Origin: Mariprofundaceae bacterium
GTDB taxonomy: Bacteria > Pseudomonadota > Zetaproteobacteria > Mariprofundales > Mariprofundaceae
Assembly: GCA_030950585.1 (NCBI GenBank)
Contig: JAUZRG010000134.1
Span: forward strand, 1-64,000
Reading direction: 5' to 3'
Length of the DNA stretch: 64,000 nt
How positions within the stretch are numbered: position 1 is the first letter of the stretch; each line of letters starts with the position of its first letter. The notes under the pieces were generated by a model that saw only the letters and a program-made list of their open reading frames with translations, was not told the DNA's origin and did no database searches. Both the position numbers and the translations under genes were made by a program. Of this stretch, positions 52,173-63,403 are shown piece after piece.

Positions 52173-52176
52173 ACTA

Positions 52177-52219
52177 AAAAGAGAACCTTGTTTTTGTAAA
52201 AAACAAGGTTCTCTTTTTG
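52177..52219 (+). terminator. Terminator of guaBA
   Basis: A long hairpin with 20-base arms (52177-52196 and 52200-52219), A-rich on one side and T-rich on the other. Confidence 0.92.
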
Positions 52220-61104: not shown

Positions 61105-62268
61105 ATGAACACAGCTATAATGGGAGTCATTGGGACTTCAAGAAAAGTAGATGAACGACGGTTTCCAATCCATCCAAAGCATCTTGCACGCATTCCTGAG
61201 GCACTTCGTCGCCAGCTCATCTTTGAAGAAGGTTATGGTGAACCTTTTGGTATGCCAGACTCAGAAATTGCTGCGATGACAGGTGGTGTTGCCACACGTC
61301 ACAAATTACTGGCAGAGATTGGGTCTGTTTTGATTAACAAGCCTGTCCTAGCTGATTTAGAGGAGCTTCGCGAAGGCGGCACACTTTGGGGTTATGTGCA
61401 TTGTGTTCAGCAACAGGACATCGCTCAAGCGGCGATTGATCGTAAGCAGACATTGATTGCCTTTGAGGATATGTATGTCTGGTCGACTAATGGGCATATG
61501 GGTCGTCACACTTTTTATAAGAATAACGAAATGGCTGGCTATTGTGCTGTCATCCATGCCTTGCAACTTAAAGGCATCGATGGGCATTACGGCAATCAAC
61601 GCAAGATCATCATTTTCGGTTTTGGTGCGGTGAGTCGCGGTGCGATATACGCTCTCAAGGCGCATGGCTTTAGAGATATCACCATCTGTATTCAGCGTCC
61701 TAATCATGAGGTGCGTGAAGAGGTGCTTGATTGTAATTATGTCAGAATTAGAAAAGGCGGCGAGGGCGAAGCACGCATGTTGGTGGTGGAACGCGATGGT
61801 AGCTTACGACCGCTGGTTGATTTGATCAGTGAATCAGACATTCTCGTCAATGGAACCTTTCAAGACACAAAAAATCCTACAGACTTTGTGACCGAGGAAG
61901 AAAGTGCATGCCTCAAGTCCGATAGTTTGATTATTGATGTGAGTTGCGACGAAGGCATGGGTTTCTTTTTTGCCAAGCCAACCACCTTTGAGAGTCCGAT
62001 GTTTAAATATAAAAGCATCGATTATTACGCTGTAGATCACACGCCCAGTTATCTCTGGGAAAGTGCAACACGATCCATTTCGGCCGCTCTCATTGTTTAT
62101 TTACCAACCGTATTGGCGGGTCGTGATAGTTGGCAGAAGAATGAGACGATTCGACGGGCAATTAATATTGATGATGGCATGATTCAGAATGAATCTATTC
62201 TTTCGTTTCAAAATCGTGAGCCAAATTATCCTCATGTACAGATCAATAAGGCTGAAAAGGCTGCTTAA
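61105..62268 (+). CDS. N5-(carboxyethyl)ornithine synthase-like dehydrogenase
   Basis: A 387-aa protein of the alanine dehydrogenase/PNT superfamily closest to carboxyethylornithine synthases, which condense pyruvate with the side chain of ornithine or lysine using NADPH. Visible: IGTSRKVDERRFPIHPKHLARIP at the start, EEGYGEPFG, and the dinucleotide-binding KIIIFGFGAVSRGAIYAL (FGxGxxxxG). A standard alanine dehydrogenase lacks the ISxxDERR-like start seen here. ATG at 61105 follows AAGGAAACGACG. It stands alone with a hairpin on each side. Substrate is inferred from similarity only. Confidence 0.75.
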   Translation: MNTAIMGVIGTSRKVDERRFPIHPKHLARIPEALRRQLIFEEGYGEPFGMPDSEIAAMTGGVATRHKLLAEIGSVLINKPVLADLEELREGGTLWGYVHCVQQQDIAQAAIDRKQTLIAFEDMYVWSTNGHMGRHTFYKNNEMAGYCAVIHALQLKGIDGHYGNQRKIIIFGFGAVSRGAIYALKAHGFRDITICIQRPNHEVREEVLDCNYVRIRKGGEGEARMLVVERDGSLRPLVDLISESDILVNGTFQDTKNPTDFVTEEESACLKSDSLIIDVSCDEGMGFFFAKPTTFESPMFKYKSIDYYAVDHTPSYLWESATRSISAALIVYLPTVLAGRDSWQKNETIRRAINIDDGMIQNESILSFQNREPNYPHVQINKAEKAA

Positions 62269-62278
62269 TACTTAACGA

Positions 62279-62314
62279 ATAGTTCAGATCGTGAACGTTT
62301 ACGATCTGAACTAT
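62279..62314 (+). terminator. Hairpin after the 61105 gene
   Basis: A 14-bp perfect stem (62279-62292 against 62301-62314) with an eight-base loop, 10 bp after the stop. T run is short. Confidence 0.7.
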
Positions 62315-62378
62315 CCTTATCTGCACCTGCACACGAAACATGGTGAGGTACTTTATCTTATGAAAAATATTTGTAACT

Positions 62379-62447
62379 AGAGCCTAGCCGAAAAGCATAA
62401 CATACTGATATTTAACAGAAGTATGTTATGCTTTTCGGCTAGGCTCT
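62379..62447. repeat. Perfect hairpin with 28-bp arms
   Basis: Arms 62379-62406 and 62420-62447 are perfectly complementary; the loop is 13 bases. It begins AGAGCCTAGCCG and ends CGGCTAGGCTCT. There is no ORF and no T run. Such a long perfect palindrome is unusual in bacterial chromosomes. The gap 62315-62604 otherwise shows no gene. Confidence 0.9.
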
Positions 62448-62604
62448 TGCTATGAAGGCGAGTAACACCCGTTAAATAAAATACAAGGGTGTTTTATTTG
62501 TCCTATCAGAGGGTGAAAGGCTTTGCATCGGAGATGCGGCACAATCACACCGCATCATCAGTTTAGCATAACATGATTTTTTACATGTCACACCATGATA
62601 AAAA

Positions 62605-62943
62605 TTAAGGTTGAGCGTAGAAAATATAGTTGCTCGCATAATCACTAAATTCAAAATAAACTTTCTTTTCGCCTGCATCTTTTTGCATATTTAGATTGCT
62701 ATCCAAAATGCCATAACCAAAGCGGTAAGGGCGCGGCTGTTCACCATTGGTGCTGATGGCCGTGGAAAGTTTATCAATCTGAATGAAGCGTTTGACCAGC
62801 TTATCACCTGCATAAATTTCAAGCACACCATTGGTTCCTGTATAGTTCTGCACAGCACGACTCAATTTATTTTGTTGTTCTTGGGTACAGCCATTGAGCA
62901 TCGCCAAGCATACAAGGCCAAAGCCTAGGGTGCGTATTATCAT
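62605..62943 (-). CDS. Small lipoprotein of unknown function
   Basis: A 112-aa protein with lipobox LNGC (Cys at about residue 19) after a signal segment MIIRTLGFGLVCLAM. The mature part contains VLEIYAGDKLVKRFIQIDKL and VYFEFSDYASNYIFYAQP, a beta-rich pattern. No family recognised. Likely outer-membrane lipoprotein (Thr at +2). The ATG at 62943 follows AGGAAAATC. Confidence 0.75.
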   Translation of the reverse strand: MIIRTLGFGLVCLAMLNGCTQEQQNKLSRAVQNYTGTNGVLEIYAGDKLVKRFIQIDKLSTAISTNGEQPRPYRFGYGILDSNLNMQKDAGEKKVYFEFSDYASNYIFYAQP

Positions 62944-62972
62944 GATTTTCCTCCGTGAAGTGGATGTGAACC

Positions 62973-63290
62973 TTAGCGAATTAAACGCAAGGAAAAAGGT
63001 ACTTTAAAGTTCTGGCCTTTGTATGCTGCTATCGCACCCATCACACAAAAGACAAGGTGACAAATACTAATCACAGGGTATAAAAAGACACCGATGACAA
63101 CAAAGCTTAAAATGAAGGCAATCATATAAGCGATCATCGCGGTAATGGACCAATTCAAGGCTTCTTGAACTTGTTTTTTAAAGCTGGGATCACCTATTTT
63201 TAAGAAAAAGAGAATCAAGCTTGGTACAAAACCAAAGAAAAAAGTTCCGATCCATAATAACAAAGCCATGTTTTTTGTTTCTTGTTGCAT
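62973..63290 (-). CDS. DUF4870/Tic20-like membrane protein
   Basis: A 105-aa membrane protein with three helices. ALLLWIGTFFFGFVPSLILFFL and FKKQVQEALNWSITAMIAYM are the DUF4870 signature. Function unknown. ATG at 63290 follows AAGGA; the TTG two codons upstream is an alternative. It lies 29 bp upstream of the lipoprotein gene on the same strand, possibly one transcript. Confidence 0.85.
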   Translation of the reverse strand: MQQETKNMALLLWIGTFFFGFVPSLILFFLKIGDPSFKKQVQEALNWSITAMIAYMIAFILSFVVIGVFLYPVISICHLVFCVMGAIAAYKGQNFKVPFSLRLIR

Positions 63291-63403
63291 ATACAATCCT
63301 TGTATTTTAAATATTTAGTTTAAAGAATCCGTATGCCAGCATGTTGGCTCTGTAGATGCAAAGTATAGTTAAGCTTACATTGAGCACCAAAAAAGGGGTA
63401 GTC

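Follow-up and report, generated by a model that had tools for sequence, protein, structure and literature searches.

A perfect palindrome in a Mariprofundaceae genome is very probably built from two left ends of a resident insertion sequence

The perfect palindrome at positions 62379–62447 of the window (the whole stretch of 64,000 nucleotides that was analysed) very probably derives from a resident insertion sequence (IS) of ISNCY type: it lacks the transposase and consists of two left ends joined head to head. Each arm corresponds to the left end of the IS, the loop too comes from it, and on both sides the palindrome stops exactly at the IS tip; the join itself would have been made at a short inverted repeat inside the left end. 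A preliminary description of this DNA had listed the end of a mobile element among several possibilities, and in this it was correct: the arm recurs in the genome as an IS left end on seven other contigs. What it had missed is that one and the same end, the left, supplies both arms, which is why the palindrome is perfect.

Positions 62379–62406 and 62420–62447 are exact reverse complements (28/28) around a 13-base loop (62407–62419), giving 69 bases in total; of the 13 inverted repeats listed for the window, none has longer arms. By a simple composition estimate, the chance expectation for such perfect repeats in 64 kb is about 1e-10. The 151-nt stretch around the palindrome folds at −61.5 kcal/mol, compared with −28.9 ± 3.1 in 200 shuffles (z −10.4). 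No T run follows on either strand; the plus strand continues with TGCTATGA and the minus strand with AGTTACAA. The features of the region are as follows.

61105–62268, plus strand: alanine-dehydrogenase-like gene (Pfam PF01262 and PF05222), left neighbour of the palindrome
62279–62314: inverted repeat with 18-bp arms, belonging to the end of that gene
62375–62378: left flanking tetramer AACT, which resembles the IS target AGCT (8-bp flank in the top 1.0% of window 8-mers)
62379–62406, plus strand: left arm, matching the outermost 28 bp of an IS left end (28/28 identical to C26 and C107, 1–2 differences from five others)
62397–62429, plus strand: inner inverted repeat of the IS left end (10-bp arms at 62397–62406 and 62420–62429, 13-bp loop)
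62407–62419, plus strand: loop, oriented as in the IS left ends and identical in six of the seven others
62420–62447, minus strand: right arm, a further IS left end in inverted orientation (exact reverse complement of 62379–62406)
62448–62451: right flanking tetramer TGCT, or AGCA towards the element (8-bp flank in the top 0.6% of window 8-mers)
62605–62943, minus strand: small lipoprotein gene, right neighbour of the palindrome (signal LAMLNGC, read by eye)

The flanks read ...TTGTAACT on the left and TGCTATG... on the right. The preliminary description had given the 28-bp arms, the loop and the lack of a T run accurately, and its placement of the palindrome between a gene terminator and a lipoprotein gene agrees with the gene end and repeat on the left and the small gene on the right, whose open reading frame has no Pfam match. 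It had overlooked a terminator-like stem plus T run beyond the palindrome, at about 62464–62499, read here from the sequence; its loop of 16 exceeds the limit of 8 used in our terminator scan, which therefore did not list it.

A search of the own genome (2.52 Mb, 212 contigs) with the 181 bases around the palindrome matched the arm plus loop at seven other places: C107, C26, C205, C129, C67, C157 and, in part, C18. From outside to inside these left ends consist of the tip AGAGCCTAGCCGAAAAGC (1–2 differences in five of the seven copies), ATAACATACT, a 13-base loop and AGTATGTTAT. Most undeleted copies then have AATTTAAGTCATG followed by a reading frame, the variants at this position being TTATG in C205 and GCTTTAAGTCATG in C107. 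When the 69 positions are aligned, C26 is identical to the palindrome over its first 51 bases and C107 over its first 56, while C205, C67, C157 and C129 have 1 or 2 differences within the first 51. The left end on C18 is shortened by an internal deletion, which shows that loss of internal parts does happen in these IS copies. These matches identify the palindrome arm as the left terminus of a resident insertion sequence of the DDE type. A genome-wide search with the arm had been proposed in the preliminary description; the arm proved to be repeated, always as an IS end, and is not a single-copy sequence with drifting arms.

In intact left ends, ATAACATACT and AGTATGTTAT form a 10-bp inverted repeat around the loop, just before the transposase start. 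This inner repeat is unchanged in five of the seven other left ends (C205, C67, C26, C129 and C107), has one change in its second arm in C157, and is destroyed by the deletion in C18. The window sequence agrees with the left end up to and including the second arm of the inner repeat and there, at the point where the strand changes, does not enter the transposase gene; it exits via the reverse complement of the left end, so that the right arm stands where complete left ends have the transposase start (...AATTTAAGTCATGAATAG). Beside that start most intact left ends carry a TATAAT-like box, which is TATGCT in the palindrome; if the box is a promoter, the transposase promoter would have been lost in the palindrome.

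The reading frame at the left end is predicted to encode a transposase. Its N-terminal part, on C107, matches positions 34–160 of NF033593 (NCBIfam, ISNCY family transposase; E 3.5e-15, 55.6 bits) and its C-terminal part, on C143, matches positions 288–443 (E 4.8e-36, 124.4 bits), both partial frames scoring below the whole-protein cut-off of 325 bits. The C-terminal part lies above the Pfam DDE_Tnp_1 cut-off (31.3 vs 23 bits), and NF033593 appears to be the closest NCBIfam model for the parent IS. Right IS ends bear a terminal repeat that matches the left ends; their tip, AGAGCTTAGCCGAAAAGG, is found on C204, C118 and C141, with variants on C143, C17 and C46, and the end sequences of the IS are AGAGCC/AGAGCT. 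Within single contigs of the 212-contig draft, neither a complete transposase gene nor an intact IS copy with both flanks was found. The seven left-flank contigs were joined to the six right-flank contigs, two of which (C17 and C46) carry nearly the same flank, in all combinations, and no reading frame settled the pairing. A second IS transposase (DDE_Tnp_1_6, DUF772 and DDE_Tnp_1) is encoded at 1407–2909 of C143 (L037), not far from where the first IS has its right end.

The sequence on either side of the palindrome was scored with a matrix built from 12 other IS flanks, seven left and five right, C46 being left out for its near identity to C17. The matrix consensus adjoining the tip is TAGCT. 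The left and right flanks in the window score 4.1 and 4.8, values reached by the percentages of window 8-mers given above, and stand at the low end of the 12 matrix flanks (4.2–9.5); both sides thus look, weakly, like IS target half-sites. A target duplication is absent, whether of 4 bp (AACT vs TGCT) or as TA (TA vs TT). Only 12 of 40 positions are identical between the right flank and a copied left flank; the right flank is therefore not a copy of the left one, and the palindrome ends at the IS tip. This bears on whether the assembly could have fused two IS left-end contigs, as a draft in 212 contigs with other IS ends near contig ends might lead one to suspect. We regard such an artefact as very unlikely: a fold-back chimera would run on into the copied left flank, which is not seen here, and a misjoin would have had no more than about 15 bp to run through (C107 compared with the inverted tip), less than the usual assembly word sizes.

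A very stable fold in an intergenic position would also be expected of a hairpin kept by selection, be it a non-coding RNA, a strong terminator, or a binding or recombination site. This we hold to be most improbable, given that the palindrome has no Rfam family and no T run, that the stem sequence is fully accounted for by the IS end, and that similar paired cores are absent from the 73 other genomes of the family. The Rfam matches in the window are three tRNAs, none at the palindrome, and a non-coding RNA or riboswitch was accordingly dismissed; an intrinsic terminator was set aside for the missing T run, the scan of 62000–63400 having listed none. A repeated regulatory palindrome of the family (REP-like) was rejected as well, since the paired-core pattern GCCGAAAAG-N20-50-CTTTTCGGC (cores 20–50 bp apart) occurs at this one place in 74 family genomes, and at no second. 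The non-coding RNA, the very strong terminator and the recombination or nuclease site put forward in the preliminary description thus find no support, the last also being single copy in such form. Its statement that the sequence must be maintained by selection or be newly arrived is better taken in its second half than in its first: the perfect arms would result from their recent descent from a single sequence and not from a hairpin kept by selection. The palindrome calls for no cellular function and is ordinary IS biology, and one candidate RNA or regulatory site can be struck off.

The parent IS is little represented in the collections searched. Apart from a 23-bp IS end in G030, which holds a relic right end, the 181-bp region had no match in the relatives searched, all of other genera. 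At the limits set, the transposase search found one genome of 74 in the family, one of 78 in the class and one of 398 in the phylum, always the window's own (the sets overlap). Searches of plasmids, phages and viral contigs at the DNA or protein level yielded no closely related element, and in plasmids and phages there was no DNA match to the IS. When named genomes were scanned for the left-end tip, six matches came from unrelated organisms (Clostridia, Gastranaerophilales, Selenomonadales, Algoriphagus and Porphyromonadaceae); they were taken as chance, about four chance hits being estimated. In a genome of a sister genus (G063), contig C75 carries at about 1126–1336 an element of about 211 bp (L083, 1121–1341) that has ends closely similar to those of the IS, lacks a transposase and is bordered by AGCT on both sides; C128 and C155 of the same genome hold parts of relatives, and a transposase of this IS kind was not found there. 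Ends of this type have thus spread without the gene, but the two-left-end form is known only from the window genome.

Two routes could lead from the IS to the palindrome, whose identity is independent of which of them holds. In the first, for which the chances are close to even, a deletion between two oppositely oriented IS copies would have used the 10-bp (or 15-bp) sequence of the inner repeat as short direct homology, removing both bodies and fusing the left ends, so that the palindrome would be a relic of the pair. This route predicts the exact product, including the orientation of the loop, as well as a target-like flank on each side that is independent of the other and does not duplicate it. 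Moreover, the genes to the left and right of the palindrome do not lie together elsewhere. Orthologues of the left gene occur in five other genomes of the 74, and in the four of these whose neighbourhoods (8–15 kb) were compared there was no match to any of seven window genes tested besides the left gene itself; the right-hand neighbour, which we take to be DUF4870-like, is in none of the other 73. This point is weak, since the neighbourhood is poorly conserved anyway. A deletion also requires two nearby inverted copies with identical left ends, and the identity of the arms is then mildly surprising, five of the seven other left ends differing from this arm.

The second route, which we consider quite possible though somewhat short of an even chance, would make the palindrome a fold-back miniature element: in one IS copy, copying of the left end would have switched strand at the inner hairpin and returned along that end to its tip, and the transposase would then have inserted the resulting 69-bp unit. 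Here the identity of the arms is directly explained, both flanks resemble the IS target, and the transposase-less elements of the sister genus described above have similar ends. The left end on C107 is also in keeping with it: two neighbouring changes, both matching the opposite arm, extend its inner repeat from 10 to 15 bp, as expected from template-directed correction. Against this route, a target duplication is absent although the arms are without any mismatch, and the palindrome is present as a single copy only. The deletion fits the flanks better, as these are not duplicates of each other, and the template switch fits the arms better; we therefore lean slightly to the deletion, and an origin in place is slightly favoured over transposition as a tiny non-autonomous element. 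By either route, any mobility of the palindrome would depend on the transposase acting in trans.

In place of the AGTATGTTATAATTT of the other undeleted copies (C157 with one further change), C107 reads AGTATGTTATGCTTT. Its 15-bp inner repeat can be an ancestral variant or may result from partial conversion towards the palindrome. It is unlikely that the inner repeat acts as a palindrome-making module at which strand switching repeatedly turns left ends into fold-back pairs, with C107 stopped part of the way and the window copy brought to completion; an IS would then have a route for making minimal two-left-end elements. As a derivative of two left ends, the palindrome is a clear example of a junction, the short inner inverted repeat, where two identical IS ends can fuse, and it shows that a perfect palindrome which stands out in raw sequence can turn out to be IS debris.

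Like other ISNCY-type IS (NF033593; e.g. ISRm17 and ISRle10, both named among the plasmid matches), the parent has a DDE transposase, both partial frames matching the model; its protein is only 31–32% identical to the listed plasmid matches, and the window feature itself is without transposase. With the MITEs described in the review PMC10969869 the palindrome has in common that it is short, AT-rich, gene-free and intergenic, forms a stable stem-loop and has the terminal inverted repeats of a resident IS, with 69 bp and no transposase gene. It differs from them in that both ends are left ends with nearly no interior, and that neither a target site duplication nor several dispersed copies are found. 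Target duplications fade with age according to the same review (PMC10969869); the arms of the palindrome show no decay despite the missing duplication. The IS1202/ISAjo2 family, as described in PMC10132070, was formerly placed under ISNCY, measures about 1.5 kb, encodes a transposase of ~440 aa, has TGT...ACA ends and inserts 5 bp from dif sites. The former grouping, the length and the size of the transposase are likenesses to the parent IS, which differs in its AGAGCY ends and TAGCT-like target, not TGT...ACA near dif (PMC10132070). A dif/Xer link, prompted by that paper, was rejected because the IS ends and the target differ.

Further observations concern the IS flanks and the surroundings of the palindrome. 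Three of the five right IS flanks share the three bases past TAGCT, inverted, with one of the seven left flanks: ATA, CTT and TCG, in the pairs C205/C204, C157/C141 and C67/C118 (L005/L039, L008/L041 and L007/L040). The flanks of C107 (AGGT) and C143 (ACCT) are likewise inverted. It looks as if these copies sat in short palindromic targets, the pairings being unproven and the comparison post hoc. The IS left end holds TTCTGTTAAAT on the minus strand (62409–62421, and at the corresponding position of the IS left ends), close to the consensus of the XerD half of dif sites; a dif-like site of the genome is at C187:4988–5013. A perfect inverted repeat at 52176–52218 has 20-bp arms and a 3-nt loop; A-rich to one side and T-rich to the other, it resembles a two-way terminator. 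The alanine-dehydrogenase/transhydrogenase-like protein of 61105–62268 (plus strand) is found in only six of the 74 family genomes and two of 14 genera, with varying neighbours, and this patchy spread suggests that its gene has moved horizontally. A possible miniature element with 19-bp inverted repeats (95%) 119 bp apart lies at 1522–1678 of C211 in genome G000 (L016); next to it stands ATTTGTAACTA, an 11-base sequence that also occurs beside the window palindrome.
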